Assembly (NCBI GenBank): GCA_945905295.1
Contig: CAMDPX010000003.1
Span: 1 to 64,000, forward strand
Source: Planctomyces sp. SH-PL62
GTDB lineage: Bacteria > Planctomycetota > Planctomycetia > Planctomycetales > Planctomycetaceae
Reading direction: 5' to 3'
DNA: 64,000 nt
Positions 149 to 17,420 of the stretch are shown piece after piece (the stretch's first letter is position 1; each line of letters starts with the position of its first letter). The translations under genes and the position numbers were made by a program. Under the pieces are notes generated by a model. It did not search any database, was not told the origin of the DNA, and saw nothing but the letters and a program-made list of their open reading frames with translations.

Positions 149-3100
149 CTAGGTCATCCCACCAGCGTCACGAATCTCATAAGTAAACGAATCAAAGCCA
201 TTGAATCCGGCGTTTGGCGTATAGGTGAAGCTGCCATCAACGGCCAGTACGAGCAGGCCATTGATCACGTCCACGACAGGCGTCACCGTGACGGTCAGCG
301 AATCGCCATCCAAGTCTGAATCCACTCCGGCCCCCGTATTATCGGTAAGCACATTGCCCATCAAGGAGATGTTCTCAGCCGTCGCATAGACGTTGTTGCG
401 AGCGACGGGGGGATCATTGACCGGCGTGACGTTGCCGCTGACGTTGCCGATGTCCGTGCCGCCGTTGCCATCGCTGACCGTGTAGTCGAACGTGGCCGGA
501 CCGTTGAAGTTCGTATTGGGTGTGAACGTCAGCGTGCCGTCGGCGTTGAGGCTGACGACGCCGGTCGCGATTGTCACCGGACTGCCGACGCTGATCGGTG
601 AGCCGTCGATCTCGGTAACGGTGAGCGTGTCGCCGTCCAGATCGGTGTCCCCAACCAACACCGGGATGATCACTGATCCGTCTTCAGCGACGGTAAAGTT
701 CTCGTCGTCCGCGACCGCCGGATCATTCACGGGCGTGACAGTCCCGCTGACGTTGCCGATGTCTGACCCGCCGTTGCCATCGCTGAGCGTGTAGTCGAAC
801 GCGGCCGGACCGTTGAAGTTCGGGTTGGGTGTGAACGTCAGCGTGCCGTCGGCGTTGAGGCTCACGACACCGGTGGCGATCGTCACCGGACCGCCGAGGC
901 TGATGGGCGTGCCGTCGATCTCGGTGACGGTCAGCGTGTCGCCATCCAGGTCGGTGTCGCCGGTCAGCACGTCGATGATCACTGATCCGTCTTCAGCGAC
1001 GGTAAAGATCTCGTCGTCCGCGACCGGCGGATCATTCACCGGCGTGACGTTGCCGCTGACGTTGCCGATGTCTGAGCCGCCGTTGCCATCGCTGAGCGTG
1101 TAGTCAAACGTCGCCGGACCGTTGAAGTTCGCATTAGGAGTGAACGTCAGCGTGCCGTCGGCGTTGAGGCTCACGACACCGGTGGCGATCGTCACCGGAC
1201 TGCCGAGGCTGATTGGCGTGCCGTCGATCTCCGTAACGGTCAGCGAGTCGCCGTCGAGGTCGGTGTCGCCAGTCAGCACGTCAATGATCACCGCACCGTC
1301 TTCGGCGACGGTGAAGCTCTCGTCGTCGGCGACCGGCGGATCATTGACCGGCGCGACGTTGCCGCTGACGTTGCCGATGTCCGAGCCGCCGTTGCCATCG
1401 CTGACCGTGTAGTCGAACGACGCGGGGCCGTTGAAGTTCGCGTTGGGTGTGAACGTCAGCGTGCCGTCGGCGTTGAGGCTCACGACACCGGTGGCGATCG
1501 TCACCGGACTGCCGAGGCTGATTGGCGTGCCGTCGATCTCGGTAACGGTCAGCGAGTCGCCGTCGAGGTCGGTGTCGCCGGTCAACACGGGAATGATCAC
1601 GAAACCATCTTCGGCCACCGTGAAAGTCTCGTCGTCGGCGACGGGTGGATCATTGACCGGCGTGACGTTGCCGCTGACGTTGCCGACGTCCGTGCCACCG
1701 TTGCCATCGCTGACCGTGTAGTCAAACGCGGCTGGACCATTGAAGTTCGCATTGGGTGCGAAAGTCAGCGTGCCGTCGGCGTTGAGGCTCACGACACCGG
1801 TGGCAATCGTCACCGGACTGCCGAGGCTGATCGGCGTGCCGTCGATCTCGGTAACGGTCAGTGCGTCGCCGTCGAGGTCGGTGTCGCCAGTCAACACGGA
1901 AATGATGACGGAACCATCTTCGGCCACCGTGAAGGTCTCATCGTCCGCGACGGGGGGATCATTCACCGGCGTGACGTTGCCGCTGACGTTGCCGAGGTCC
2001 GAGCCGCCGTTGCCATCGCTGAGCGTGTAGTCGAACGCGGCCGAACCGTTGAAGTTCGTGTTGGGTGTGAACGTCAGCGTGCCATCGGCGTTGAGGCTGA
2101 CAAGACCGGTGGCGATGGTCACCGGACTGCCGAGGTTGATTGGTGTGCCGTCGATCTGAGTGACGGTCAGCGTGTCGCCATCCAGGTCGGTGTCGCCGGT
2201 CAGCACGTCGATGATGACGGCACCGTCTTCGGCCACCGTGAAAGTCTCGTCGTCCGCGACGGGTGGATCATTCACCGGCGTGACGTTGCCGCTGACGTTG
2301 CCGGTGTCCGTGCCGCCGTTGCCGTCGCTGACCGTGTAGTCGAACGACGCGGGGCCGTTGAAGTTCGCATTAGGTGTGAACGTCTGCGTGCCGTCGGCGT
2401 TGAGGCTGACGACGCCGGTGGCGATCGTCACCGGACTGCCGAGGCTGATGGGCGTGCCGTCGATCTCGGTGACGGTCAGCGTGTCGCCATCCAGGTCGGT
2501 GTCGCCGGTCAGCACGTCGATGATCACCGCACCGTCTTCGGCCACCGAAAAGGTCTCATCGTCCGCGACGGGGGGATCATTCACCGGCGTGACGTTGCCG
2601 CTGACGTTGCCGATGTGCGAGCCGCCGTTGCCGTCGCTGAGCGTGTAGTCGAACGACGCGGGGCCGTTGAAGTTCGCATTGGGTGTGAAAGTCAGCGTGC
2701 CGTCAGCGTTGAGGCTGACGAGACCGGTGGCGATCGTCACCGGACTGCCGACGCTGATTGGCGTGCCGTCGATCTCCGTAACGGTCAGTGCGTCGCCGTC
2801 GAGGTCGGTGTCGCCAGTCAGCACGTCAATGATCACCGCACCGTCTTCGGCGACGGTGAAGCTCTCGTCGTCGGCGACCGGCGGATCATTGACCGGCGTG
2901 ACGTTGCCGCTGACGTTGCCGAGGTCCGAGCCGCCGTTGCCATCGCTGAGCGTGTAGTCGAACGCGGCCGAACCGTTGAAGTTCGTGTTGGGCGTGAACG
3001 TCAGCGTGCCATCGGCGTTGAGGCTGACAAGACCGGTGGCGATGGTCACCGGACTGCCGAGGTTGATTGGTGTGCCGTCGATCTGAGTGACGGTCAGCGT

Positions 3101-6100
3101 GTCGCCATCCAGGTCGTTGTCGCCGGTCAGCACGTCGATGATGACGGCACCGTCTTCGGCCACCGTGAAAGTCTCGTCGTCCGCGACGGGTGGATCATTC
3201 ACCGGCGTGACGTTGCCGCTGACGTTGCCGAGGTCTGAGCCGCCGTTGCCATCGCTGAGCGTGTAGTCAAACGTCGCCGGACCGTTGAAGTTCGCATTAG
3301 GTGTGAACGTCAGCGTGCCGTCGGCGTTGAGGCTGACAAGACCGGTGGCGATCGTCACCGGACTGCCGACGCTGATCGGTGAGCCGTCGATCTCGGTGAC
3401 TGTTAGCGCATCGCCATCCAGATCGGTGTCGCCGGTGATGACGTCAATGATCACGCTGCCGTCTTCGGCGACCACGAACATCTCGTCGTCCGCAACCGGT
3501 GGATCATTCACCGGCGTGACGTTGCCGCTGACGTTGCCGACGTCCGTGCCGCCGTTGCCGTCACTGACCGTGTAGTCGAACGACGCGGGGTCGTTGAAGT
3601 TCGCATTGGGTGTGAAGGTGAGCGTGCCATCAGCGTTGAGGCTCACGACGCCGGTAGCGATCGTCACAGGACTGCCGAGGCTGATTGGCATGCCGTCAAT
3701 CTCGGTGACGGTCAGCGTGTCGCCGTCCAGATCGGTGTCCCCAACCAACACCGGGATGATCACTGATCCGTCCTCGGCCACCGTGAAGGTCTCATCGTCC
3801 GCGACGGGTGGATCATTCACCGGCGTGACGGTCCCGCTGACGTTGCCGACATCCGAACCGCCGTTGCCGTCGCTGACCGTGTAGTCGAACGACGCCGGGC
3901 CGTTGAAATTCGCATTGGGTGTGAAAGTCAGCGTGCCGTCGGCGTTGAGGCTCACGACACCGGTCGCGATCGTCACCGGACTTCCGACGCTGATCGGTGA
4001 GCCGTCGATCTCAGTGATGGTCAGCGTATCGCCGTCCAGATCGGTGTCCCCAACCAACACCGGGATGATCACTGATCCGTCTTCAGCGACGGTAAAGATC
4101 TCATCGTCGGCGACGGGTGGATCATTGACCGGCGTGACGTTGCCGCTGACGTTGCCGATGTCCGAACCGCCGTTGCCGTCACTGACCGTGTAGTCAAACG
4201 CGGCTGGACCGTTGAAGTTGGTGTTGGGTGCGAAAGTCAGCGTGCCGTCGGCGTTGAGGCTCACGACGCCGGTGGAGATGGCCACCGGACTGCCGAGGCT
4301 GATTGGCGTGCCGTCGATCTCGGTGACGGTCAGCGTGTCGCCGTCCAGGTCGGTGTCGCCGGCCAGCACGTTGATGATGACGGCACCGTCTTCGGCCACA
4401 GTGAAGGCCTCGTCGTCCGCGACCGGAGGATCGTTCACCGGCGTGACGTTGACCGTCATCGTCGCTGAACCACTGAAGACAGTGCCGTCGCTGACTTGGA
4501 ACGTGAATGTTGTGTAGGGCGAACCGTTGGCGTTCAAAGCCGGAGTGAAGACCAGCGTGATGAGACTGGCTGTTGGGATGATTTGGTTGAGCGTGACGGC
4601 AACTGCGCCGAGCGTCAGCGTGCCGACGCTGGGGAGTGCGGTGATCTTCACGTTCTGCAACGTGTCCGAGGAATCGACGTCGCTGAACGGGAAGCTGGCG
4701 GCGGTGAAGGTGACGGGGGTGTCTTCGGGAGTCGTGGCCGAGTTGTTCGACGTCGTCGGTGGATCGTTCACCGGCGTGACGTTGACCGTCATTGTGGCTG
4801 AACTGCTGAAGACGGTTCCGTCGCTGACTTGGAAGGTGAATGTGGTGTACGGCGAGCCGGTGCCATTCAACGCGGGAGTGAACACGAGCGTGTTGAGACT
4901 GGCTGTCGGGATGATTTGGTTGAGCGTGACGGCAACTCCGCCGAGTGTCAGCGTGCCGACGCTGGGGAGCGCGGTGATCTTCACGCTTTGCAACGAGTCG
5001 CTGGTATCGACGTCGCTGAACGGGAAGCTGGCGGCGGCGAACGTGACGGGGGTGTCTTCGGGAGTCGTGACCGAGTTGTTCGACGTCGTCGGCGGGTCAT
5101 TCACCGGCGTGACGTTGACCGTCATTGTGGCTGAACTGCTGAAGACGGTTCCGTCGCTGACTTGGAAGGTGAATGTTGTGTAGGGTGAGCCGTTGGCGTT
5201 CAACGCGGGAGTGAACACGAGCGTGTTGAGACTGGCTGTCGGGATGATTTGGTTGAGCGTGACGGCAACTCCGCCGAGTGTCAGCGTGCCGACGCTGGGG
5301 AGCGAGGTGATCTTCACGCTTTGCAAAGTGTCGCTGGTATCGACGTCGCTGAAGGGGAAGCTGGCGGCGGCGAACGTGATGGGCGTGTCTTCGGGCGTCG
5401 TCACGGAGTTGTTCGACGTTGTCGGCGGATCATTCACCGGCGTGACGTTGACGGTCATAGTGGCGGAAGTGCTGAAGAGGGTTCCGTCGCTGACTTGGAA
5501 ACTGAAGGTCGTGTAGGGCGAACCGTTGCCGTTCAATGCCGGAGTGAACACGAGGGTGCCGAGGCTGGCCACCGGGATCACCTGGTTGAGCGTGACGGCG
5601 ACTCCGCCGAGCGTCAGCGTGCCGACGCTGGGGAGTGCGGTGATCTTCACGCTCTGCATCGTGTCGCCGACATCGCCGTCGCTGAACGGGAAGTTGGCCG
5701 CCGAGAACGTGACGGGCGTTTCTTCGGAAGTTGTCACCGCGTTGTTCGACGTCGTCGGCGCGTCGCTCACGGATGCAACGTTGATCCCGATCGTATCGCT
5801 GTCGCTCATCGCTCCGCCGGCACCGGTGTTGCCTTGATCGTTCGTCGTGATCTTGAGGCTGGCCGGGCCGAAGTAATTTGCGGTGGAGAGAAAGCTCAAG
5901 CCGGCGAGTGCGGTGTTGATGTTCGCCAGCGTACCGGTGAAGGTCATCGTGGCGTCGGACGTGCCGTCGCCGACGGTGAAGGTCAGCCCGCTGGTTCCCG
6001 ACAACGAGATTGCGCCATTGGTGCCGGTCAACGTGATTTGCAACGAGGCGGTGCCGGCATCCACGTCGGTGATCGAAATCAGATTGCCGTTGCCGACGGA

Positions 6101-8941
6101 GAAGACGCGGGCGATGTCTTCGTTGGTGGATTGCGTGGCCGGGACGGAATTGATCGGGGCGTCGTTGACGTTGACCGCCGAGCTTCCCAAGTCGGCGATG
6201 CCGGTCGTCCCCGTGGCACCGACCAGTGTGGCCACGGCGGTGGTCTGGTTGATGGTGTAGATGTTATTGCCGGCGTGCGCGTAGAGCGTGCCGTTTGAGC
6301 CGAACGCAAAGCCGTTGATCGTGATGGTCGGTGTGATGACACCGATCAGCGTGGCGACGTAGGTGCTGACATTGACCGTGTACAGCGAGTTTCCGGAGTT
6401 CCACCACAGGACGTTGTTGGTATCAAACGCCATGTCGCCCGAACCAGCGGCGAGCGTGCTGACGACGCCGGAAGAGATGACCGCTCCGGTGGTGGGATTG
6501 AGTTGATACAGCGTGTCGCTCGGACTTCCCGTGGCGGCCCACAGTGTTCCGTCGGATCGGAACGACAGTTTGATGATGTTTCCCGGCAGGCTGGCGAGCG
6601 TCGTGATCAGCGTGTTCGTGCCGGTGAGAGGGTTGTATCGCGAGAGCCGAGCCGTCGGGTTGGTGAATTCGACATAGAAGACGTCACCGGAGACCGGGTC
6701 GCGGGCGTTGGCGGCGGTCGAGTAGGAACTCGTGCCGACGGTGGTGGCGGCTCCGGTCGTGATATTGATCGTGGAAATATTGAATGGTGCCGCATTGGAC
6801 GCGGCGTAGATGGCGGTCATCCGCGTGTCGAATCGCCGCTGGAACACGCCCGCCGTGTCTCCCGTGCCGTTGCCGCTCCAGACGATGGTGAAATCGGTGT
6901 TCGGCGCGATGATCGCCGAGGAGAACTGCTGGTTGTTGGCCGTGGTCCCGGCGACGCGAAACTCGACATCCTGCACGACGCCCGCCGCGTTGTACCGCTG
7001 AGCGTAGACGCCGTTCTGATTGCCGTCCGACGCGGAGTCGGTCCAAGTGACCAAGAAGTTGCCGGACGAATCACTGGCGACCGTTGAATACTGTTGAGTG
7101 TTGGTGACGGTGGTGTTGACGCGGAACTCGGTGGCATCGAGCGCCGTGCCGGCCGAGTCGTAGCGCCGCGCGAATACGCCCGTGGTGTCGCCGGTTCCTT
7201 CGCCACTCCAGGTCACGACGAAGCCGCCGGCGGAGTTCATCGCCACGCGGCCATACTGTTGCGTGTTCGTGGTGGTCGTGTTGACTCGGAACTCGCCCCC
7301 CACGGCGGTGCCAGTGGTGTCGTAGCGCTGGCCGAACACGCCCGACAAGTCGCCGGTCCCTTCGCCGCTCCAGACGACGACGAAGTCTCCTTTGGGATTC
7401 CTGTCTACAGAGGCGAACGACTGCGTTCCCGTCGTCGTGGAGTTGATACGGAACTCGCCACCGATCGCGGCACCAGCGGCGGTGTAGCGTTGGCCGAAGA
7501 CGCCGGCCGTGTCGCCGGTTCCCTCGCCGCTCCAGACGATCACGAAGTTGCCCAACGAATCGAGCGCCACCGAAGGTTGCTGTTGCGTGTTGGTCGTGGT
7601 GGTGTTGACGCGGAACTCGGCACCTTGTGCGACACCGGTCGCGTTGAACCGCTGAGCAAAGATGCCGGCCGTGTCCCCTGTCCCGTTGCCGCTCCAGGCG
7701 ATAACGAAGTTGCCCGCCAAATCCATGTCGACCGTGGGGAACTGCTGCGCGTTGAGCGTGGTGGTGTTGGCTCGCGTTTCGGCACCCTGCGTGACACCGG
7801 CCGCGCTGTAACGCTGGAAGTAAACGCCGTACCCGCTGCCGTCGAGATTCGAATCCGCCCAGGTGACGACATAGTTCCCGGCCGCATCGACGGCTACTGC
7901 TTGAGGACTGGCAAACGCCGTCTCCTGAGCGTTCGCGGTGGTCGTGTTGACGCGCGACTCCGGTGCCGTCGGCGCGGCAAGGAGCACGTCGTTCCAAGTG
8001 ATACCGAGCGCCGCGTCTTGACCGATCGTCTCCGTCACCGCGCCGTGGACATATTCCAAATCCCAGTTGCCGCCGAGCGCCGCGCTGCCGGTGAGGTCCG
8101 TCGATCCCGCCACGTCAGCACCGGTCAGGGCGCTGAGTCCGTCGATCAGTTCCTGACCCTCGGCGGTGGCCGCCAGGTTGCAGCCGTAGATCAGCAAGTC
8201 TCCGTCGCTCGCGAAGGTGCTCGCCCACCGAGCAACCTCTTCACTCACGCCCATCAGAGTCTGTTGGTCGATCCAAGTCGCTCCCAGTTGGAAACCTCCC
8301 GCCTGGCCGTGCGAGAGGATGTGAACCGCGGCGAGATCACTGCGGCCAGCGAGCGCCGCGGTCACTTGCGACACGCCGTCGAGGGTCGCATCGAGCAACT
8401 CGATCTCGAACACGCTTCCCGGCGTTGCCTGTGCAAAGAGATCGTCGAGCAAAGCCTGATAGCCGGCCACCGACGTGTCGACGAACACCAACTCGTGCCG
8501 GATCGAGTCCGCAGTCGCCGCGCTCAATTCCGAACGCTGCTCATCAACGGTCGTCATCAACTGCTGAGCCAACTCATCGGAATGCCACAGCGACTCGTCA
8601 CGCGGTGTTTCGTTCGGATCGAGCGTCAGCGATTGTTGGTCATCCAGCGGTTGTCCGAGCAAGTCCTCCAACGATGCTTCGATATGATCCAGTGCTGCGA
8701 TCACTCGTACCTCGGCCGGCTCAAGGACGCTCGGCTCCAACGTCAGCGCCTCCTGAGCCTGAGCCAACTCCACATCCGCATCCACATTCACCGGAGCGAC
8801 TGGCCCCGCATCGAACAGCAACCGATCTTCCAACCGCTCGAGCAACATCCGCCGCCGAGGTGCCGGCTCGGTGGGCGGAGTCTTCTCCGGACGACGGAAA
8901 AAACCGTTCGCCATCAATGCTCGAAACAAATGCCGTCCCAT
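149..8941 (-). CDS. Giant LEPR-XLL / DUF4347 / cadherin-like tandem-repeat surface protein
   Basis: A 2930-residue protein, probably exported and surface-attached or adhesive. Residues 34-47 (LERLEDRLLFDAGP) are the planctomycete LEPR-XLL signature, which stands in place of a classic signal peptide. Residues about 150-307 match DUF4347 (HELVFVDTSVAGY ... ILSHGQAG ... YGCNLA), found at the N-terminus of large repeat proteins. Residues about 327-704 hold seven ~54-residue repeats with N-T-T-T and G-x-F/Y-V-V-x-W motifs. Residues 709-917 look like a beta-propeller (YRYNPLTGTN-like), followed by a cadherin-like unit, four 111-residue and thirteen 103-residue Asp/Gly-rich repeats (GDTDLDGD), probably Ca-binding. 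The start at 8941 lies just before the LEPR-XLL region; M10 and M32 are alternatives. The TAG at 149 is probably not the native end. No neighbour suggests a pathway. Confidence 0.9.
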   Translation of the reverse strand: MGRHLFRALMANGFFRRPEKTPPTEPAPRRRMLLERLEDRLLFDAGPVAPVNVDADVELAQAQEALTLEPSVLEPAEVRVIAALDHIEASLEDLLGQPLDDQQSLTLDPNETPRDESLWHSDELAQQLMTTVDEQRSELSAATADSIRHELVFVDTSVAGYQALLDDLFAQATPGSVFEIELLDATLDGVSQVTAALAGRSDLAAVHILSHGQAGGFQLGATWIDQQTLMGVSEEVARWASTFASDGDLLIYGCNLAATAEGQELIDGLSALTGADVAGSTDLTGSAALGGNWDLEYVHGAVTETIGQDAALGITWNDVLLAAPTAPESRVNTTTANAQETAFASPQAVAVDAAGNYVVTWADSNLDGSGYGVYFQRYSAAGVTQGAETRANTTTLNAQQFPTVDMDLAGNFVIAWSGNGTGDTAGIFAQRFNATGVAQGAEFRVNTTTTNTQQQPSVALDSLGNFVIVWSGEGTGDTAGVFGQRYTAAGAAIGGEFRINSTTTGTQSFASVDRNPKGDFVVVWSGEGTGDLSGVFGQRYDTTGTAVGGEFRVNTTTTNTQQYGRVAMNSAGGFVVTWSGEGTGDTTGVFARRYDSAGTALDATEFRVNTTVTNTQQYSTVASDSSGNFLVTWTDSASDGNQNGVYAQRYNAAGVVQDVEFRVAGTTANNQQFSSAIIAPNTDFTIVWSGNGTGDTAGVFQRRFDTRMTAIYAASNAAPFNISTINITTGAATTVGTSSYSTAANARDPVSGDVFYVEFTNPTARLSRYNPLTGTNTLITTLASLPGNIIKLSFRSDGTLWAATGSPSDTLYQLNPTTGAVISSGVVSTLAAGSGDMAFDTNNVLWWNSGNSLYTVNVSTYVATLIGVITPTITINGFAFGSNGTLYAHAGNNIYTINQTTAVATLVGATGTTGIADLGSSAVNVNDAPINSVPATQSTNEDIARVFSVGNGNLISITDVDAGTASLQITLTGTNGAISLSGTSGLTFTVGDGTSDATMTFTGTLANINTALAGLSFLSTANYFGPASLKITTNDQGNTGAGGAMSDSDTIGINVASVSDAPTTSNNAVTTSEETPVTFSAANFPFSDGDVGDTMQSVKITALPSVGTLTLGGVAVTLNQVIPVASLGTLVFTPALNGNGSPYTTFSFQVSDGTLFSTSATMTVNVTPVNDPPTTSNNSVTTPEDTPITFAAASFPFSDVDTSDTLQSVKITSLPSVGTLTLGGVAVTLNQIIPTASLNTLVFTPALNANGSPYTTFTFQVSDGTVFSSSATMTVNVTPVNDPPTTSNNSVTTPEDTPVTFAAASFPFSDVDTSDSLQSVKITALPSVGTLTLGGVAVTLNQIIPTASLNTLVFTPALNGTGSPYTTFTFQVSDGTVFSSSATMTVNVTPVNDPPTTSNNSATTPEDTPVTFTAASFPFSDVDSSDTLQNVKITALPSVGTLTLGAVAVTLNQIIPTASLITLVFTPALNANGSPYTTFTFQVSDGTVFSGSATMTVNVTPVNDPPVADDEAFTVAEDGAVIINVLAGDTDLDGDTLTVTEIDGTPISLGSPVAISTGVVSLNADGTLTFAPNTNFNGPAAFDYTVSDGNGGSDIGNVSGNVTPVNDPPVADDEIFTVAEDGSVIIPVLVGDTDLDGDTLTITEIDGSPISVGSPVTIATGVVSLNADGTLTFTPNANFNGPASFDYTVSDGNGGSDVGNVSGTVTPVNDPPVADDETFTVAEDGSVIIPVLVGDTDLDGDTLTVTEIDGMPISLGSPVTIATGVVSLNADGTLTFTPNANFNDPASFDYTVSDGNGGTDVGNVSGNVTPVNDPPVADDEMFVVAEDGSVIIDVITGDTDLDGDALTVTEIDGSPISVGSPVTIATGLVSLNADGTLTFTPNANFNGPATFDYTLSDGNGGSDLGNVSGNVTPVNDPPVADDETFTVAEDGAVIIDVLTGDNDLDGDTLTVTQIDGTPINLGSPVTIATGLVSLNADGTLTFTPNTNFNGSAAFDYTLSDGNGGSDLGNVSGNVTPVNDPPVADDESFTVAEDGAVIIDVLTGDTDLDGDALTVTEIDGTPISVGSPVTIATGLVSLNADGTLTFTPNANFNGPASFDYTLSDGNGGSHIGNVSGNVTPVNDPPVADDETFSVAEDGAVIIDVLTGDTDLDGDTLTVTEIDGTPISLGSPVTIATGVVSLNADGTQTFTPNANFNGPASFDYTVSDGNGGTDTGNVSGNVTPVNDPPVADDETFTVAEDGAVIIDVLTGDTDLDGDTLTVTQIDGTPINLGSPVTIATGLVSLNADGTLTFTPNTNFNGSAAFDYTLSDGNGGSDLGNVSGNVTPVNDPPVADDETFTVAEDGSVIISVLTGDTDLDGDALTVTEIDGTPISLGSPVTIATGVVSLNADGTLTFAPNANFNGPAAFDYTVSDGNGGTDVGNVSGNVTPVNDPPVADDETFTVAEDGFVIIPVLTGDTDLDGDSLTVTEIDGTPISLGSPVTIATGVVSLNADGTLTFTPNANFNGPASFDYTVSDGNGGSDIGNVSGNVAPVNDPPVADDESFTVAEDGAVIIDVLTGDTDLDGDSLTVTEIDGTPISLGSPVTIATGVVSLNADGTLTFTPNANFNGPATFDYTLSDGNGGSDIGNVSGNVTPVNDPPVADDEIFTVAEDGSVIIDVLTGDTDLDGDTLTVTEIDGTPISLGGPVTIATGVVSLNADGTLTFTPNPNFNGPAAFDYTLSDGNGGSDIGNVSGTVTPVNDPAVADDENFTVAEDGSVIIPVLVGDTDLDGDTLTVTEIDGSPISVGSPVTIATGVVSLNADGTLTFTPNTNFNGPATFDYTVSDGNGGTDIGNVSGNVTPVNDPPVARNNVYATAENISLMGNVLTDNTGAGVDSDLDGDSLTVTVTPVVDVINGLLVLAVDGSFTYTPNAGFNGFDSFTYEIRDAGGMT
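405..4425 (-). repeat. 13 tandem copies of a 309-bp coding repeat
   Basis: Thirteen consecutive copies of a 103-codon unit, each starting VADDExFTVAEDG and ending SGNVTPVNDPP. The period is exactly 309 bp throughout. The copies are very similar at DNA level (for example GTGACGTTGCCGCTGACGTT recurs in nearly every copy), which implies recent expansion or gene conversion. Every copy also leaves an open antisense frame of about 96 codons, a by-product of composition. Confidence 0.95.
4426..5765 (-). repeat. 4 tandem copies of a 333-bp coding repeat
   Basis: Four copies of a 111-residue unit (TTSNNSVTTPEDTPVTF ... SATMTVNVTPVNDPP) with an exact 333-bp spacing, directly upstream in the gene from the 309-bp array. 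This is a second cadherin-like repeat family in the same protein. Confidence 0.93.
6830..7960 (-). repeat. Seven degenerate ~54-codon repeats in the giant protein
   Basis: Seven units recognised by N-T/S-T-T-x-N-x-Q-Q at the start and W-S-G-x-G-T-G-D-T in the middle. They are diverged at DNA level, unlike the 309-bp array, so they are older. The fold is likely beta-rich; function unknown. Confidence 0.8.
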
Positions 8942-9691: not shown

Positions 9692-11650
9692 CTACCACGC
9701 TTGCTTGAGAGCCTTCGCGAAGATCGCTTCAGCCGAGGTCGCGTCCCCGGTCGGCCGATCAATCAGCGTCAGCTCTTGAGCCTTCACCAATCGCCGAATC
9801 AGCTCTTGCCGAGGATCGGTCGAGTCCGGAGTCACAACACTCGGATGCACGACCAGGCAGTCCCACTCTTGGTGACCGAAGCTGAGCGACCAATTCATGA
9901 TCCACGAGTACGACCGAAAGAACTCTTCTTCCGTCGCCACCGTGAGCCCCGCCGGCACAGCGATGATCACAAGGTCCGGCTTCATCGCTCGCACAGAGTC
10001 TTTCGCGAATCGCTCAATGTCTGCCAATGACTTACCGGCAGTCGGCCACACCGTGACTTCGGCGGTGGCCTGCGGAGACAACTGCTTCAGCGCGGGACCA
10101 ATCCATGCGTCGAACGGCGACATCGCCAGCACTTTCACCGGCTTGCCACTGTCGATCAACGCTTTCGATTTGACGAGCGCCGGTTGCAACGGTCCCACAT
10201 TCGCCAGCGAAGTCTCTTTGCCGGTGATCGTGCGGCAGAGTTCCTGAGCCATCCGTTTGTGGCCGTCCATGTTGGGATGGATCTCGTCGCTCAGGATGCA
10301 ACGAAACGCCCAGGCATCTTTCACGCGGAACGCTTCACCCGCCGCGAACTGATCGCAGACCGGCACCTTGAGCGATTGAGCGGTGGAATGAATCACGTCG
10401 CAAAAGCGTTTCAGCTTCTCAATTGGCCGGCCTCCGGTCGTGATGACCGAGTTCGGCGTGCAGAGCACGACTTGAGCTTTCGCCTCTCGGCAGCGTGCGA
10501 CGAGCGATTCGAGGTTCTTGCCATACTGCTCTTCCGACATGCGTGCCATGTCGTTCAGACCAAAGCTGATCGTGACCAGATCCGGCTTGTGCATCAGCAC
10601 GTCGCTGTCGAGCCGCTTCAATCCATGATCAGTCGAGTGTCCGCTGATGCCGGCATTGATGACTTTCACGTTGGCGTTCGGGACCGCCTGCTTGATCGCG
10701 ACTTCCAGCATCTCCGGATACGCCCGCCGCCCGCCGGTGTGGTAATAGACTCCGGTCACGCTGTCGCCGAGACAAACAATCGTGACCGGCTTCGCACCGA
10801 AGTCGAGCAACGGCTTCGCGGCTGATGCGGTTCCTGCAACCAACACCTGAGCGAACACAAACTCGAAAGCCTCGGTCGCCTCCGCATACTTGGTGTCGTG
10901 TCCGCCGTCGGACTTATGGATCGACTTCACCGGTCGCTTCTGCTTCTTCAACGCTTCCGCCAATCGCAACACGCTGTCAGGCGGCACGAGCTTGTCTTGC
11001 CCACCGGTTGTCATAGCGATGGGCATCGTCAGCTTGTCGGCGTTCAATTCGGAGGAACGTTTGCGGTACTCGTCAGGCTTGTCTTGCTTGGAACCACCAA
11101 ACGACGCGGCGATCGCGTCCTGAAACTGAGCGTACTCAACCAGGTTCGCCGTGCCGTTCATCGACACGACCCCATCCACTTGATCGGGATGCAACGCGGC
11201 GAACGTCAGTGCCGCCGTGCCACCCATCGAGCCTCCGCTGATCACAATCTTGTGGAGGCGATACTTGCTCCGCAGATCCTCCAGAATCTGGAGCAGATCG
11301 GCTTCTGCCGCCGGTCCCATCCACGACGTCTTGGCTCGATAGTCCGGCGAGACATAAATCATCCGCTGCTTGGTCGCCGCATCGCGAGCCGCTCGGCATT
11401 CGTCCCGGCCGTCCTTCACGAACTGCCAGCGATCCGAACCATGCCCGTGCAGCGCGATCATGACCGAGACCGGCGACTCCGAATGAAATCCGTCCGGGAG
11501 AACGACGACATAACGCTGCTCGGTGCCGTCCAACTTGGAAACGAAGACGACATCCTGCGGTTCGGCCGACTCAGTCAACGTTGCCGGCACTGTCGCTAAC
11601 AAAAAAGCAGCCCACACCGTGAGGAAGCACTCACACAACGAGCGAAACAT
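9692..11650 (-). CDS. Secreted alpha/beta-hydrolase fused to SGNH esterase
   Basis: A 652-residue two-enzyme fusion. An N-terminal hydrophobic stretch (residues about 5-27) looks like a signal peptide. Residues about 35-270 are an esterase/PHB-depolymerase-like alpha/beta hydrolase, with HGHGSDRW near the oxyanion site, the nucleophile elbow GGSMGG and a late His in GGHDTKY. Residues about 285-475 are an SGNH/GDSL hydrolase with blocks GDSVTG, NAGISGHS, GLNDM and DEIHPNMDGH. A third region (about 490-650) resembles a second SGNH fold but lacks the GDS block, so it is probably non-catalytic. The likely role is periplasmic deacylation of polysaccharide or lipid esters; the substrate is unknown. 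It is flanked by long non-coding regions and appears monocistronic. Confidence 0.85.
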   Translation of the reverse strand: MFRSLCECFLTVWAAFLLATVPATLTESAEPQDVVFVSKLDGTEQRYVVVLPDGFHSESPVSVMIALHGHGSDRWQFVKDGRDECRAARDAATKQRMIYVSPDYRAKTSWMGPAAEADLLQILEDLRSKYRLHKIVISGGSMGGTAALTFAALHPDQVDGVVSMNGTANLVEYAQFQDAIAASFGGSKQDKPDEYRKRSSELNADKLTMPIAMTTGGQDKLVPPDSVLRLAEALKKQKRPVKSIHKSDGGHDTKYAEATEAFEFVFAQVLVAGTASAAKPLLDFGAKPVTIVCLGDSVTGVYYHTGGRRAYPEMLEVAIKQAVPNANVKVINAGISGHSTDHGLKRLDSDVLMHKPDLVTISFGLNDMARMSEEQYGKNLESLVARCREAKAQVVLCTPNSVITTGGRPIEKLKRFCDVIHSTAQSLKVPVCDQFAAGEAFRVKDAWAFRCILSDEIHPNMDGHKRMAQELCRTITGKETSLANVGPLQPALVKSKALIDSGKPVKVLAMSPFDAWIGPALKQLSPQATAEVTVWPTAGKSLADIERFAKDSVRAMKPDLVIIAVPAGLTVATEEEFFRSYSWIMNWSLSFGHQEWDCLVVHPSVVTPDSTDPRQELIRRLVKAQELTLIDRPTGDATSAEAIFAKALKQAW

Positions 11651-12066: not shown

Positions 12067-12411
12067 ATGTCCGGAAAACGTTACAGCATGAATGCCGGTC
12101 GCACGACCAAACAGGGGCAGCAGATCAACGTCGGCAAGGATGGCGCGGAATACCAGGCCATCGTCAGCACCATCCACATGAACGTGGACGACATGAAAGA
12201 GGCGGGGATCACCGCTGGCACGAATGTCCGCGTTATTTCGGAACAAGGCGAGGCGGTGTTTCTTTGCCAGGAAGGAAAAGTCCCGCCCGGCATCATTTTT
12301 GTTCCATACGGGCCGCCGACCTGCCGATTGATGGGGCAAGTCACAGATGGCACGGGAATGCCGACCTCTAAAGGTTGGGAAGTGGAAGTCGAGCCGATCA
12401 CCGCCAAGTAG
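12067..12411 (+). CDS. fwdD: Formylmethanofuran dehydrogenase subunit D-like (molybdopterin-dinucleotide-binding) protein
   Basis: A 114-residue single-domain protein of the FwdD/FmdD type, the separate C-terminal pterin-binding domain that partners FwdB. The family pattern is seen in NVRVISEQGEAVFL followed by PPGIIFVPYGPP, the loop that contacts the second pterin guanine dinucleotide. Its presence with a cysteine-complete FhcB (12708-14042) suggests that this complex binds a Mo or W bis-pterin cofactor, unlike the purely hydrolytic Fhc complex of methylotrophs as I recall it. It is the first gene of the operon. Its TAG stop lies inside the left end of a palindrome (12408-12465). Confidence 0.85.
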   Translation: MSGKRYSMNAGRTTKQGQQINVGKDGAEYQAIVSTIHMNVDDMKEAGITAGTNVRVISEQGEAVFLCQEGKVPPGIIFVPYGPPTCRLMGQVTDGTGMPTSKGWEVEVEPITAK

Positions 12412-12465
12412 GTTGGGACTCCGTCCCGATCTGCACCGAACGGTCGGGACAGAATCCCAACCTAC
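12408..12465. repeat. GTAG...CTAC palindrome overlapping the fwdD stop
   Basis: GTAGGTTGGGACTCCGTCCC pairs with GGGACAGAATCCCAACCTAC. The TAG in the left end is the fwdD stop codon. It may act as an mRNA-processing or stabilising hairpin between fwdD and the downstream genes; that role is inferred. Confidence 0.85.
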
Positions 12466-12488
12466 GTTTAAGTAAGAAGGAATCAACA

Positions 12489-12641
12489 ATGAATCACGAT
12501 GAAGCTCAAGCGTCCGCTCCGGTGGGCCAGCGGCTGCAACAGACGCCGGTCGAAGAGCCGATTGCTTGGGAGATGATTGAGAACGGCCGGTACATGCCTC
12601 GCCGCATTTGCGGGAGCTTCCCTGGCCGGGAACTGGGTTGA
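12489..12641 (+). CDS. Small 50-aa protein in the fwd/fhc operon
   Basis: A short ORF, MNHDEAQASAPVGQRL..., ending PRRICGSFPGRELG. It has an AAGGA ribosome-binding site about 7 bases before the ATG and sits between fwdD and fhcB in the same direction. The C-terminal half is basic with a G-R-Y-M-P-R-R-I-x-G-S-x-x-G-R-E-L-G pattern that looks like a conserved motif rather than random sequence; I believe similar short proteins occur in planctomycetes but cannot check. It could be an assembly factor or small subunit of the formyl-transfer complex. Function unknown. Confidence 0.6.
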   Translation: MNHDEAQASAPVGQRLQQTPVEEPIAWEMIENGRYMPRRICGSFPGRELG

Positions 12642-12707
12642 ACGTTTTTCGTTCCGCCCGGTCCGGGCGGTCAAACTCCTGAATGAATTGCATGAATCGA
12701 GGCAACC

Positions 12708-14042
12708 ATGACCGTGACTATCACGCAGCACGCGACCTGCACCTTTTGCGGTTGCGTGTGTGACGACATCGAATTGCACGACGACGGCGTCAAGATCATC
12801 AAAACCAAGGCGGCTTGCAGTCTTGGAACCTCTTGGTTTCTGAATCACACGGCCGAGCGGCTGTATCCCGACGCGCTGATTGACGGCAAAGAAGCGACGG
12901 TCGATGAAGCCGTTGAAGTGGCGGCCGAATACCTCCACCGGGCCAACATGCCGTTGGTTTACGGCTTGAGCAACGTGACCTGTGAAGCTCAGCGCGAGGC
13001 AGTGTCGCTGGCCGAAAAGATTGGAGCGGTGATCGACAGTCACACCTCGTTGTGACACGGGCCAACCGAAATCGCCGCCCAGTTGGGTGGCAAAGTCTCG
13101 TGTACGCTCGGCGAAGTGAAAAATCGAGCGGACTTCATCCTGTATTGGGGAGGCAACCCGGCCGAGTGCCATCCGCGGCACTTCACGAAATACACCATCA
13201 TGCAGAAGGGAAAATTTCTTCCCGAAGGCCGCAAAGGCCGGACGATGGTGCTGGTCGATATTCGCGAAACGATGAGCGTCAAAGCGGCGGACATCTTCTT
13301 ACAGGTGCGCCCTGGCAAGGATTTCGAGGTCATCACGGCGTTGCGTGCCCTCGTGAAGGGCAACCGCGTGGACACTGCGGTCGTGGAAGAGACCGGGCTG
13401 AAGCTCGAACAGTTGCAGGACTTGGTCGATCGCATGAAACGCTGCAAGTTCGGCGTGATCTTCTTCGGGATGGGTCTCTCGATGACTCGTGGCAAGCACA
13501 TGAACTCGGCGGCCGTGCTGACGCTGGCGGCCGAGATGAATGCCTTCACGAAGTTCGTGGCGATGCCGATGCGCGGTCACGGCAACGTCGCCGGCGCGGA
13601 CATGGTCCTGCGCTGGACGACGGGCTATCCGTTCGGAGTCAATTTGTGCCGAGGCTTCCCGCGATTCAATCCCGGAGAGTTTTCAACGGTGGACTTACTG
13701 GTGCGGGGGGACATCGACGCGGCGTTCGTGCTGGGAGCCGATCCCGGTGCGACGATGCCTCAACCGGGCATCGACACGCTGGCTCGCGTGCCGACCATCG
13801 TGCTCGATCCGAAGGTCACGCACACCAGCAGACTGGCTCGCGTCCACATCACGACCTCCGTGACCGGCATCAGTTCGCCCGGCACGGCGTATCGTATGGA
13901 CGAGGTTCCGTTGCCGCTGCGTCCGGTGCTCAAGTCGCCGTACCCCAGCGACGAAGAGGTCGTGAAGCGGATCATCGCCGCTGTCGAAAAGAAAACCGCG
14001 TGGCTGCCAAAGCCGGAAGCGTTATCATCGGGCATCGCCTAG
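12708..14042 (+). CDS. fhcB: Formylmethanofuran dehydrogenase subunit B, probable selenoprotein (TGA at codon 116)
   Basis: A 444-codon FwdB/FhcB homologue if TGA 13053-13055 is read through; otherwise two pieces (12708-13055 and about 13056-14042) in one frame. The N-terminus has C11-x2-C14-x3-C18 and C37, the 4Fe-4S site of FwdB and formate dehydrogenases. The TGA falls in S-H-T-S-L-*-H-G-P-T, where FwdB has the Cys (Cys118 in the Methanothermobacter enzyme) and formate dehydrogenases have Cys or Sec before HGP. A SECIS-like hairpin follows at 13074-13091. Downstream, YWGGNPAECHPRH, DIRET and the pterin-domain motifs are intact, with no second lesion. The predicted product oxidises formylmethanofuran or formate at a Mo/W site with a Sec ligand. 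The alternative is a simple nonsense mutation or sequencing error. Confidence 0.85.
13074..13091 (+). promoter_or_regulatory. Candidate bacterial SECIS element
   Basis: GCCGCCC (13074-13080), loop AGTT, GGGTGGC (13085-13091): seven pairs including one G-U. A G is the second base of the loop, as in known bacterial SECIS elements. The loop G is 27 bases after the last base of the TGA, inside the usual 16-37 window. It lies within the coding sequence, as bacterial SECIS elements must. Confidence 0.7.
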
Positions 14043-14138
14043 CAGCCAGTTGAAATTCGCCCTACCCCGGTTGCCGGGGTGGTTCATCGGGGTGATTTCA
14101 ATGAGTTGGTCTTTGATTGATTTTCGTGAGGTTCGAGA

Positions 14139-14804
14139 ATGCCTGTCGTCGCTGCGAAATCCTCGATTCGGTTTGCCGATCTCCAACAGGGGTATCGCCG
14201 CAATCGCGGCGTCGCAGACGTCATTCGCGAGGAAGGAAGTTGGTCCGAGGAGGAATACCTCGATCTCGACGAAGGTTGCTTGTTGGAGTTCTCGCAAGGA
14301 AATGTCGAGGTACTTCCGATGCCAACGGCGACTCACCAGCGTTTAGTCATGTGGTTGTGCTGGCAATTGAGTTCCTTTGTGCAATCACGGCGCTTGGGGG
14401 AAGTGCTACTCGCGCCGTTGCCGGTACGAATCGGTTCGGCCAAGTACCGCGAGCCGGACATCATGTTTCTCGCGAGCGAGCATGAAGATTGGGATGAAGA
14501 CAAGTTTTGGGAGAGCGCGGACCTCGTCGTGGAAGTCGTGAGCGACGACGATCCGAAACGTGATCTCGTGCAGAAGCGCAAAGAGTACGCTCGGGCCGGC
14601 ATCGCCGAGTACTGGATCATTCAACCGCGCGATTCGGTTGTTTCGGTGCTGAGTCTCAAGGTTCGTTCGTATCACGAGCGGCGATTCAAACTCGACGATG
14701 TCGCAAAGTCGCACCTGTTGCCGGGTTTTGAAATCTCGGTGTCGGAGCTGTTTGCAGCGGCTAAACCGCCGAAAGCTCGACGCAAGAATGGAAACAAGCC
14801 TTGA
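14139..14804 (+). CDS. Uma2-family (DUF820) PD-(D/E)XK nuclease-like protein
   Basis: A 221-residue Uma2 family protein, with a restriction-endonuclease-like fold. The core is visible as REPDIMF (Asp), ADLVVEVVS (Glu), then KRKEYARAGIAEYW, with the Lys and the family's E-Y-W. The catalytic residues look intact. The family is abundant in cyanobacteria and planctomycetes and often annotated as an endonuclease; the biological role is not established. It is unusual in that it sits between fhcB and fhcA, breaking an otherwise C1-only operon, so it is likely a later insertion. It starts 97 bp after fhcB. Confidence 0.85.
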   Translation: MPVVAAKSSIRFADLQQGYRRNRGVADVIREEGSWSEEEYLDLDEGCLLEFSQGNVEVLPMPTATHQRLVMWLCWQLSSFVQSRRLGEVLLAPLPVRIGSAKYREPDIMFLASEHEDWDEDKFWESADLVVEVVSDDDPKRDLVQKRKEYARAGIAEYWIIQPRDSVVSVLSLKVRSYHERRFKLDDVAKSHLLPGFEISVSELFAAAKPPKARRKNGNKP

Positions 14805-14870
14805 GGATGATTCGATAGGCCGAACGAACAAGATTGAAAACGTGGCCGCCGAGTCACATCAGGAGAGGAT

Positions 14871-16565
14871 ATGCTGCGGATCACTGGCGGAAAGGTCTAT
14901 GACCCGGCCAACGGCATCAACGGTGAAGTGCGGGACATCTGCATTGCGGACGGCAAGATCGTCGCCAATGTCGAAGGTGGCCGAACGATCGACGCGAATG
15001 GGATGATCGTCTTCCCCGGTGGCGTGGACATTCACACGCACGTCGCGGGAGCGGCGCTCAATTTCGCGCGTGCGCTGACGCCGGAAAATCAGCGAGTCGC
15101 CGCGAAGTTCATGCGCACGGCAGACACACGCATGGGGATCGGCGGGCAGACGCCAACCACGTTCGCAACCGGCTACTTGTACGCGGGCATGGGCTACACG
15201 ACGGCGGTTGAGGCGGCGGTTCCAGTCCTCTCGGCGAAGCACACGCACGAGGAACTGCGCGACACGCCGATCATCGACAAAGCCTGTTGCCTGTTGATGG
15301 GCAACAACGAGATCGTGATGGACCTGCTGGAGGTCGGCGAGTACGAAAAGGCCAAGCACGTCGTCGCGTGGCTGATCTCGGCGGCGAAGACCTACGGCAT
15401 CAAGGCGGTCAATCCGGGTGGCGTCGTCGCTTGGAAGTACGGCAAGGACGCGAAGCAACTCAGCTCGCCGATCGACGGCTATAACAAGGTCACGCCGGGA
15501 ACGATCATCGGCAACCTTGCGAAGATCGTGGATGAGCTGGGACTGCCGCACCCGATGCACCTGCACTGCAACAATCTCGGCGTGCCGGGCAACATCTCAA
15601 CGACGCTCGACACGATGAAGATGCTCGAAGGGAGCCGAGCACACATGGCGCACCTGCAATTCCACGCCTACGGCGGCGACGACTGGCACACCATGCGATC
15701 GGAAACCGTGCAGCTTGCCGAGTACATCAACACGCACCCCAACGTGACGTGCGATGCCGGAGCGGTCCTGTTCGGCAACGCTGTGACGATCACCGCCGAC
15801 GGCCCGTGGCAGCACTTGCTGTATCAGCTCACCGGCCGCAAGTGGGGCAATCTTGACGTCGAAAACGAAACCGGCTGCGGCATCGTCCCCTATACCTACA
15901 AGGGGAGCAACCTGGTCAACGCCGTGCAGTGGGCCGTCGGCTTGGAACTGCTGCTGCTCATCAACGACCCCTGGCAGATCTTCCTGACAACTGACCACCC
16001 GAACGGAGCGTGTTTCTGGCGATACCCGGAGATCATCCACTTGCTGATGAACGCCGACGCTCGCCGCGAACGAGTCCGCGCGTTGCCCGAAGCCGCGCTC
16101 AGCCGCATTTACCTTCCCGAGTTGAACCGCGAATACACGCTCTCCGAGATCGCGACCATCACATCCGCCGGCCCCGCGCGAGCACTCGGCATGAAACAAA
16201 AAGGACACCTCGGTGTCGGAGCGGACGCGGACATCGCGATCTACAACCAGAATCCCGACGGCGAGTTGATGTTCCGCTACCCGCGATACGTCCTGAAAGG
16301 GGGCGAGGTCGCGGTGGAAGAGGGCGAGATTCGCTCGACCAAAGACGGCCACGAATTCGTTTGTCAGCCAAGCTACGACGCCGGCATCGAAGACTACCTG
16401 AAACCCGTGTTCCAACAGCAATACACGATGTCCTTCGAGAACTACCCCGTGGATGCCGAGCGCGTTCACGGCATGCAAATCGCCGAGTGCTCGTATCAAA
16501 AAGAAACCAGAACAGCCGAGCCGGAGGGCGTTAGCCCCCGGACAACATCGCCGTCCGGGAGCTAA
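14871..16565 (+). CDS. fhcA: Formylmethanofuran dehydrogenase / formyltransferase-hydrolase subunit A
   Basis: A 564-residue amidohydrolase-superfamily subunit that hydrolyses (or, in reverse, forms) the formamide of formylmethanofuran at a binuclear metal site. Visible ligands are H55 and H57 in DIHTHVAG, K178 in GIKAVNPGG (family position of the carboxylated Lys), His residues in MHLHCNN and HLQFHAYGG, and the catalytic Asp at about 374 in TTDHPNG. All match the FwdA family. The last ~16 residues (AEPEGVSPRTTSPSGS) are encoded by a palindrome (16515-16581) and are not part of the family, so the original stop has been overrun or replaced. It is followed 42 bp later by fhcC. It acts with FhcB, FwdD and FhcC in C1 transfer between formate and H4MPT/MFR-type carriers. 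Confidence 0.93.
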   Translation: MLRITGGKVYDPANGINGEVRDICIADGKIVANVEGGRTIDANGMIVFPGGVDIHTHVAGAALNFARALTPENQRVAAKFMRTADTRMGIGGQTPTTFATGYLYAGMGYTTAVEAAVPVLSAKHTHEELRDTPIIDKACCLLMGNNEIVMDLLEVGEYEKAKHVVAWLISAAKTYGIKAVNPGGVVAWKYGKDAKQLSSPIDGYNKVTPGTIIGNLAKIVDELGLPHPMHLHCNNLGVPGNISTTLDTMKMLEGSRAHMAHLQFHAYGGDDWHTMRSETVQLAEYINTHPNVTCDAGAVLFGNAVTITADGPWQHLLYQLTGRKWGNLDVENETGCGIVPYTYKGSNLVNAVQWAVGLELLLLINDPWQIFLTTDHPNGACFWRYPEIIHLLMNADARRERVRALPEAALSRIYLPELNREYTLSEIATITSAGPARALGMKQKGHLGVGADADIAIYNQNPDGELMFRYPRYVLKGGEVAVEEGEIRSTKDGHEFVCQPSYDAGIEDYLKPVFQQQYTMSFENYPVDAERVHGMQIAECSYQKETRTAEPEGVSPRTTSPSGS

Positions 16566-16581
16566 CGCCCTCCGGTTCGCC
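16515..16581. repeat. Palindrome forming the 3' end of fhcA
   Basis: The left arm GCCGAGCCGGAGGGCGTTAG pairs with CTAACGCCCTCCGGTTCGCC, with inner arms around CCCGGAC/GTCCGGG. The fhcA stop (TAA in AGCTAACG) lies inside the right arm, so the repeat supplies both the last codons and the stop. Confidence 0.85.
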
Positions 16582-16607
16582 TATCGAAATTTTCGACGCC
16601 ATTACCC

Positions 16608-17420
16608 ATGATCAAGCTCACGCTGAAAGACCAACCGACTGTTCCGCTCGAAGCCGAGATGCTCGCTCCCGACTATTGCGCCGGGTTGGGCCTCGATGCA
16701 ATTCGCGCTCTGCCAGTGTTCCACGGCAAGCGACAACTGCGAGTGGACGACTTCTTCACCGTCGAAGGGGAACCGAGCGACGAACTCGAAATCCACGGCG
16801 ACCTCGCCAGGGTCAAATACATCGGCCGAGCCATGACGCGCGGCCGGGTCAAAGTTTTCGGCAACGTCGGGATGCACTTGGGAGCCTACATGAAAGGGGG
16901 CTCGATCGAAGTCACGGGCAACGCTTCCGATTGGATCGGCGGCGAGATGACCGGTGGCCTGATCCATGTCCACGGCAATGCGGGCGGCCAAGTCGGTGCC
17001 GCCTACCGAGGCAGTCTCTCTGGCATGAACAACGGCACGATCCTGATCGACGGCACCGCCGGCTTGGAAGTTGGCATGCGCATGAAGCGCGGCCTCATCG
17101 CCATCAAGGGTCTGGTGCGCGACTTCTGCGGTCTGCAAATGAAAGGCGGCACCATCGTCCTGCACAGCGGCGCGGAGATTCGCACCGGTGCCTGGATGAT
17201 TCGCGGTACGATCATCTCCCTGAAGCCGCTCAAACTTCTCCCCACGTTTCCTTTCGCTTGCACCTACAACCCAACGTTCCTGCGTTTGTACGCCAAGCAT
17301 CTCGCCACCCTCGGCTTCGCCATTCCGATCAACGAACAGGACGGAGCCTATCAGCGTTATTCCGGTGACACCTCGGTCCCCGGCAAGGGAGAGATCCTCG
17401 TGTGGCAACCGAGAAAGTAG
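16608..17420 (+). CDS. fhcC: Formylmethanofuran dehydrogenase / formyltransferase-hydrolase subunit C
   Basis: A 270-residue FwdC/FhcC subunit, related to the C-terminal GXGXG domain of glutamate synthase. Repeated turns of a right-handed beta-helix are visible: GNVGMHLGAYMKGG, GNASDWIGGEMTGG, GNAGGQVGAAYRGS, GTAGLEVGMRMKRG, then GAEIRTGAWMIRGT. The family forms the structural scaffold that holds FhcA and FhcB/D together. It is the last C1 gene here; the formyltransferase fhcD (ftr) is not in the window. The TAG stop coincides with the GTAG end of a palindrome (17417-17596). Confidence 0.93.
   Translation: MIKLTLKDQPTVPLEAEMLAPDYCAGLGLDAIRALPVFHGKRQLRVDDFFTVEGEPSDELEIHGDLARVKYIGRAMTRGRVKVFGNVGMHLGAYMKGGSIEVTGNASDWIGGEMTGGLIHVHGNAGGQVGAAYRGSLSGMNNGTILIDGTAGLEVGMRMKRGLIAIKGLVRDFCGLQMKGGTIVLHSGAEIRTGAWMIRGTIISLKPLKLLPTFPFACTYNPTFLRLYAKHLATLGFAIPINEQDGAYQRYSGDTSVPGKGEILVWQPRK

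Follow-up and report, generated by a model that had tools for sequence, protein, structure and literature searches.

A predicted selenocysteine at the metal-ligand position of formylmethanofuran dehydrogenase subunit B in Planctomycetota, with a candidate in-frame SECIS

A selenocysteine (Sec) form of formylmethanofuran dehydrogenase subunit B (FmdB or FwdB; FhcB in methylotrophs) was predicted in 2016 in the planctomycete Rhodopirellula sp. P2. The accessible text of that paper gives the operon order fmdD-fmdB-fmdA-fmdC and a full set of Sec-insertion genes in the P2 genome, names a Lake Washington fosmid alongside the P2 protein, and reports that three other planctomycetes have homologues with glycine (PMC4807772). 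Here we analyse the fwdB gene in a 64,000-nucleotide stretch of DNA from Planctomyces sp. SH-PL62 (the window; positions 1–64000 of contig C3 in a genome of 8.6 Mb that is in 476 contigs and 97% complete). Comparison of sequences makes it very probable that codon 116 of this gene, an in-frame TGA, is read as Sec, that the hairpin following it is a bacterial selenocysteine insertion sequence (SECIS), and that the selenium ligates the molybdenum or tungsten (Mo/W) of a redox-active FwdB. The first-pass annotation of the window, which had proposed the Sec codon, knew of no described bacterial Sec-FhcB with an in-gene SECIS; in view of the P2 prediction, this was too strong. Unlike the present analysis, the accessible text of the P2 account gives no SECIS sequence, companion protein or wider survey (PMC4807772). 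A literature search outside subscription papers, with some sources accessible in part, found no description of the SECIS or the companion protein reported below. The accessible part of one review of prokaryotic selenoproteomes describes FwdB from methanogenic archaea (PMC13188914), and that of a second recent review lists the FwdB family without bacteria (PMC9312934).

The archaeal Sec-FwdB proteins of Methanopyrus kandleri and Methanococcus resemble the predicted protein in having Sec at a U-H-x-P motif, and the residue X of the solved chain 9sfi, presumably one of them, falls on the same column. The archaeal SECIS is most often placed in the 3' untranslated region, according to the accessible text of a review (PMC13188914), whereas the hairpin described here is in frame, 18 nt past the UGA. 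Bacterial Sec formate dehydrogenase alpha subunits share both the UHxP motif and an in-frame bacterial SECIS (bSECIS), as in the elements of E. coli formate dehydrogenases, but they form a different family: the model TIGR01591 gives the window FwdB 57.5 bits, against a cut-off of 666. The Cys-FwdB proteins of the same planctomycete family belong to the same subunit family, and fwdD adjoins fwdB in 11 of their 13 flanked loci (L210–L222). They differ in having TGC or TGT at column 116 and in lacking both the AGUU hairpin and the 50-residue companion protein, at 54–60% identity.

The window FwdB scores 499.5 bits with TIGR03129 (curated cut-off 327.8) over residues 9–425 of 444, and thus belongs to FwdB/FmdB by its score over the whole length. 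The frame is open over all 444 codons except for the single TGA (Table 1). In the solved chains 8rja_B, 5t5i_B and 9sfi_Q, which we take to be archaeal, the column of codon 116 contains Cys in the first two (chain position 118 in 5t5i_B) and X in the third; in 5t5i_B and 9sfi_Q it lies within the motif S-V-C/X-H-G-P. The X is a non-standard residue, presumably Sec. As stated in the first-pass annotation, the TGA is thus at the Mo/W-ligand position of a frame intact on both sides: it occupies the column of Cys118 of 5t5i, and its predicted product, Sec, is with Cys one of the two residues that serve FwdB as metal ligand.

The TGA is present in 110 of 110 aligned rows with at least 70% identity, a count made without selecting rows for TGA. 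Several genomes are represented both in our genome set and by named contigs, and the rows correspond to 96 distinct genes, the window gene included. This exceeds chance. Among the 21 rows with at most 60% identity, column 116 is TGC in 12, TGT in five, GGG in two, and ACT and ACC in one each, so that the comparison suggested by the first-pass annotation gave TGA in near relatives and Cys further out. The more distant relatives in the protein database also include forms with Thr, Ser, Gly and Arg. The fetched named loci are the best 80 of 410 and therefore the nearest relatives. Across loci L021–L130, 113 matches span the column: 108 with TGA (some genomes being included twice), three with TGC, one with ACT and one with ACC. 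A homologue was found in 146 of 150 genomes of the family, where at least 28 matches, all with at least 72% identity, carry exactly one TGA. Three further matches flagged for one TGA (G059, G040 and G145; 42–46% identity) have TGT, TGC and GGG, respectively, at column 116 and are not Sec rows. The named Sec records come from Planctomycetota of several families and from five metagenome-assembled genomes (MAGs) titled Acidobacteria (L067, L073, L077, L080 and L108), the groups in which the predicted Sec clade occurs.

The TGA might be a true stop in a gene that has decayed or been split, either as a pseudogene or through a sequencing error. Such a reading could draw on the absence of a detected tRNA-Sec from this assembly, discussed below, and on the protein database, where relatives are held as truncated entries and 75 of the 120 listed align only past residue 116. 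However, decay does not account for the same TGA in every row with at least 70% identity, with one stop inside each TGA match. Of 392 genomes of the phylum, ten have a match at E ≤ 1e-180, the genome analysed here among them, and all ten carry exactly one TGA. Purifying selection also continues past the codon. We therefore reject a pseudogene or sequencing error, the probability of which we consider minute.

The hairpin that the first-pass annotation had placed 18 bases past the TGA, with seven base pairs and G as the second loop base, was confirmed. It consists of GCCGCCC, the loop AGTT and GGGTGGC. A 21-nt piece folds at -13.4 kcal/mol, compared with a mean of -5.4 kcal/mol for shuffled sequences (z -4.0; none of 200 shuffles as good), although this piece was cut around the hairpin, which is a favourable choice. 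The published bSECIS limits are a loop of 3–9 nt, an upper stem of 4–16 bp, a G within the first two loop bases, 16–37 nt from UGA to loop, and a minimum free energy of at most -7.5 kcal/mol, as given in the accessible part of the source (PMC13188914). The candidate, with its four-nucleotide loop AGUU, 7-bp stem, spacing of 25 nt and energy of -13.4 kcal/mol, falls within all of them, so that the check for a bacterial SECIS proposed with the hairpin came out in its favour.

Conservation of the hairpin was measured in the 96 distinct genes, which for this purpose were chosen for having TGA. The loop AGTT and the codons CAG125 and TTG126 are invariant in all 96; the stem is fully paired over 7 bp in 85, and its inner six pairs are formed in 93. 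Elsewhere in the same genes, TTG makes up 17.9% of Leu codons, and GCC or GCT 54% of Ala codons. Of 132 conserved columns with residues that have four or six codons, Leu126, Ala124 and Ala123 vary least. The codons of Gly127 and Gly128 are mildly constrained, and the five SECIS columns differ from the rest with p 3e-5. One gene (L083) has a double change from a C-G to a T-A pair, along with Gly127Ser. The AGTT loop is absent from all 21 non-TGA rows, which form two to five of the seven pairs in this register. The hairpin is thus under selection beyond that acting on the protein.

Invariance of TTG126 would also be expected if two proteins were made, one stopping at the TGA and the other starting by reinitiation at this TTG, the database start of a 318/319-residue protein; many database entries are indeed 318 or 319 residues long. 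Codons 117–125 would then be untranslated, yet their departures from the commonest codon comprise 207 synonymous and four nonsynonymous changes. These codons are under amino-acid selection and are therefore translated, which is the ground on which we reject reinitiation. Moreover, the unusual constraint extends to CAG125 and both Ala codons, matching the stem, the TTG is accounted for by the hairpin, to which it contributes two bases of the loop and the closing G, and the window contains no GGAGG-like site between the TGA and the TTG. We give reinitiation next to no credence.

The genome encodes SelA (435 bits), SelB (342.5 bits) and SelD (291.5 bits), the proteins expected alongside a bacterial selenoprotein gene, all above cut-off and without stops. 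SelA (E ≤ 1.9e-43) was found in 28 of 28 listed TGA genomes versus 39 of 122 others (Fisher p 3e-12), and tRNA-Sec of at least 59.8 bits, in a scan that scored at most 26 candidates per genome, in 24 of 28 versus 33 of 122 (p 1e-8); since the genomes are related, both p values overstate independence. In L057, tRNA-Sec, selA, selB and selD adjoin the fwd operon, and in L053 the same holds for tRNA-Sec and for the end of selA (the whole selA is in G030). A Sec formate dehydrogenase was sought in the genome analysed here; among seven PF00384 matches, an inner TGA was found in fwdB only. Decoding of the TGA as another amino acid, either Trp or through near-cognate suppression, would explain read-through as such, which is shown by the selection past the codon. 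However, TGA ends two of the seven genes in this stretch, the 50-residue open reading frame (ORF) and the Uma2-family gene, and is therefore not simply reassigned. The sel genes track the TGA across genomes, and the solved FwdB chains have Cys, or the X of 9sfi, at column 116. Insertion of an amino acid other than Sec is thus very hard to credit.

Several observations weigh against Sec insertion guided by this hairpin. Of the sel genes whose presence the first-pass annotation had made decisive, selA, selB and selD are there, and tRNA-Sec (selC) was not found over cut-off in the 476-contig assembly. There is none on the stretches carrying selA, selB and selD, and BLAST with the selC of a relative gave no match, in a search that included no control; a longer query containing this selC sequence did match G139 and G103. 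The other TGA genomes without tRNA-Sec of at least 59.8 bits are G008, G103, which has a 55-bit match, and G127; the close relatives G122 and G139 (98% and 96% FwdB identity) do have one. Over a longer stretch, TGA plus 48 nt, the folding advantage is modest (z -2.0; 6 of 200 shuffles as good). In 11 of the 96 genes one pair of the stem is broken, eight times the outermost (GGA at codon 128) and three times the fourth (GGG at codon 127), and stem variation consists nearly entirely of G-C/G-U exchanges, with one double change seen. The fetched loci, being nearest relatives, cannot show how often Sec was replaced further out. Among the 120 relatives listed in the protein database, P0003, which is 71% identical, has Cys at column 116, and P0015, nested among the Sec rows, has Arg. 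In two of the relatives, second copies of one tRNA-Sec end were observed, 69–70 bases long with 99% and 91% identity (G103:C23:65486–65554 and G122:C125:681–750), as might be left by an integrative element with selC as its attachment site. Taken with the conserved TGA and hairpin, the three sel genes and the selection past the TGA, the candidate Sec of the first-pass annotation remains supported.

Sec could be inserted into a protein that is a metal-free scaffold like methylotroph FhcB, in which it would have no ligand role. The rows nearest to the Sec group mostly have Thr, Ser or Gly at column 116, so metal-free relatives are perhaps nearby, and these rows too keep the four N-terminal Cys. 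The methylotroph FhcB is presumably represented by 6s6y_B, which we take to have neither a metal site nor the N-terminal Fe-S region. This 361-residue chain matches the window FwdB weakly (53.6 bits) with its best stretch at 57–152, whereas five solved FwdB chains match over nearly the whole length with 331–379 bits. Presumably, His119 and Arg288 (5t5i numbers) are active-site residues and the four N-terminal Cys form a [4Fe-4S] motif. Of 109 Sec rows, 108 retain Cys11, Cys14, Cys18 and Cys37, the other having a gap, and all 109 retain His117 and Arg289. The four Cys and Arg289, which corresponds to position 288 of 5t5i, are common to the three solved FwdB chains compared. In its N-terminal Cys, and in a weak 6s6y_B match whose best stretch starts at residue 57, the window protein departs from the methylotroph scaffold, and we regard a scaffold role as improbable. 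The accessible text of one study describes FwdB as having arisen in archaea and then passed to bacteria, and FhcB as a scaffold that lacks the Mo/W-bis(pyranopterin guanine dinucleotide) cofactor (PMC10100899).

In the FwdB copies P0005–P0008, P0014, P0021 and P0032, the metal-ligand column is occupied by Thr, Ser or Gly, and Thr-type copies lie directly upstream of the Sec copy in L081 (4619–5872) and L082 (4547–5836). The 24 rows of the Thr/Ser/Gly type, one of them with Arg, retain the four N-terminal Cys; copies with Thr, Ser or Gly are perhaps metal-free scaffolds. In L053, a second fwdB-like copy (9957–10829; the same place in L179) with 57% identity, matching only from residue 139, is followed by a second fwdA and adjoins the Sec operon.

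The history of the Sec codon was examined with quick trees carrying Shimodaira–Hasegawa-like approximate likelihood-ratio (SH-aLRT) support only. The bacterial tree, with column 116 masked, contained 81 rows thinned from 173, with P0002 and P0056 dropped beforehand. The Sec rows cluster together (SH-aLRT 93) except for the nested Arg row P0015, which is on a long branch. Their sister rows (support 82) have Thr in 12, Ser in five, Cys in three and Gly in one, and the remaining bacterial rows have Cys, except in the most distant group, where two rows have Gly. In a tree with the three solved chains, which used 17 of the 34 thinned Sec rows and left out seven other rows, 9sfi joins 5t5i, which has Cys (support 98), and stands apart from the bacterial Sec rows; these nest in bacterial FwdB. 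Forcing the bacterial Sec rows together with 9sfi is 212 log units worse (approximately unbiased test, p 7.3e-69), whereas forcing the bacterial Sec rows together without the Arg row was not rejected (p 0.07). A single clade of bacterial and archaeal Sec is thereby rejected, with archaeal Sec represented by one presumed Sec chain. By parsimony and with the three outside chains, Sec was likely gained separately inside bacterial FwdB, from Cys.

The Sec operons contain a small companion gene. An ORF of about 50 codons between fwdD and fwdB has a match in 77 of the 80 named loci, 75 of which show the gene order fwdD, ORF, fwdB, and a profile finds it in 106 of the 108 TGA loci. The two exceptions are L047, in which the contig ends inside fwdB, and L129. 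At 17 distinct loci with Cys or Gly (L210–L226, two of which are the places also covered by L049 and L050), the ORF was not found. Its product has the C-terminal core W-E-E-I-x-x-G-R-F-M-P-R-R-V-R-G-S-x-x-G-R-x-L-G, and all 88 aligned rows share W, R, P, R, G, S, G and G. Searches of Pfam and of PDB chains gave no match and a search of NCBIfam none better than E 0.13, and the protein's named database relatives, among those listed, are called 'hypothetical protein'. Because the ORF in L081 and L082 precedes the Thr copy, with the Sec copy coming next, a link between the ORF and Sec itself is not established.

A broader scenario, to which we assign an even chance, can be proposed. Bacteria would have gained Sec at the FwdB metal ligand once, independently of archaea, from a Cys ancestor and with an in-frame SECIS of their own, and would have kept it in every fetched relative with at least 70% identity. 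The companion protein, seen in Sec operons only, would be a dedicated partner and a candidate new subunit or maturation factor for the cofactor or the Sec site, and the Thr/Ser/Gly sisters would have become metal-free scaffolds.

The operon spans 12067–17420 of the window (Table 1). The 80 named Sec loci contain no match to its Uma2-family gene, but at L216 and L220, both Cys loci, Uma2 matches lie between fwdA and fwdB. On the reverse strand, at 149–8941 of the window, lies an ORF of 2930 residues, in which near-identical repeats of the type 'PVNDPPVADDE' recur many times and which encodes a large repetitive protein, perhaps of the surface. Two genes for formylmethanofuran:tetrahydromethanopterin (H4MPT) formyltransferase occur elsewhere in the genome (C2:14853–15719 and C81:24175–25056; TIGR03119, 435 and 322 bits), and the H4MPT one-carbon branch is therefore likely present.

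Table 1 Features of the fwd operon and the predicted Sec site in the window.
Feature	Position	Strand	Basis
fwdD-like subunit, molybdopterin dinucleotide binding domain	12067–12411	+	NF042908 82 bits (below cut-off 175); PF01568 41.6 bits (above cut-off 26.8)
Conserved 50-residue protein between fwdD and fwdB	12489–12641	+	Conservation across loci; without family match
fwdB/fhcB, formylmethanofuran dehydrogenase subunit B	12708–14042	+	TIGR03129; 444 codons when TGA read through
In-frame TGA, codon 116, predicted Sec codon at Mo/W-ligand position	13053–13055	+	Conservation, alignment to solved chains
Predicted bacterial SECIS	13074–13091	+	7-bp stem 13074–13080/13085–13091, loop AGTT 13081–13084
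Uma2-family gene between fwdB and fwdA	14139–14804	+	PF05685, 107 bits
fwdA, formylmethanofuran dehydrogenase subunit A	14871–16565	+	TIGR03121, 699 bits
fwdC, formylmethanofuran dehydrogenase subunit C	16608–17420	+	TIGR03122, 263 bits

Based on these comparisons, a mechanism can be proposed that is the standard bacterial one, to which the present analysis adds breadth, the constraint on the SECIS, a likely separate origin and the companion protein. SelA would make Sec on tRNA-Sec with selenophosphate from SelD. The hairpin would recruit SelB, which would deliver Sec at the UGA, and the selenium would then ligate the Mo/W of a redox-active FwdB. As part of the H4MPT one-carbon pathway, the FwdABCD complex may interconvert CO2 and formylmethanofuran (or an analogue of the latter), most likely running oxidatively. 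Predicted Sec-FwdB is found across Planctomycetota and in some MAGs labelled Acidobacteria, which makes it a widespread trait. Databases truncate the protein, which makes it easy to misread how these bacteria handle one-carbon compounds. A Sec ligand to the metal speaks for a redox-active enzyme that acts on formate or CO2, and not for a metal-free scaffold of the methylotroph type.
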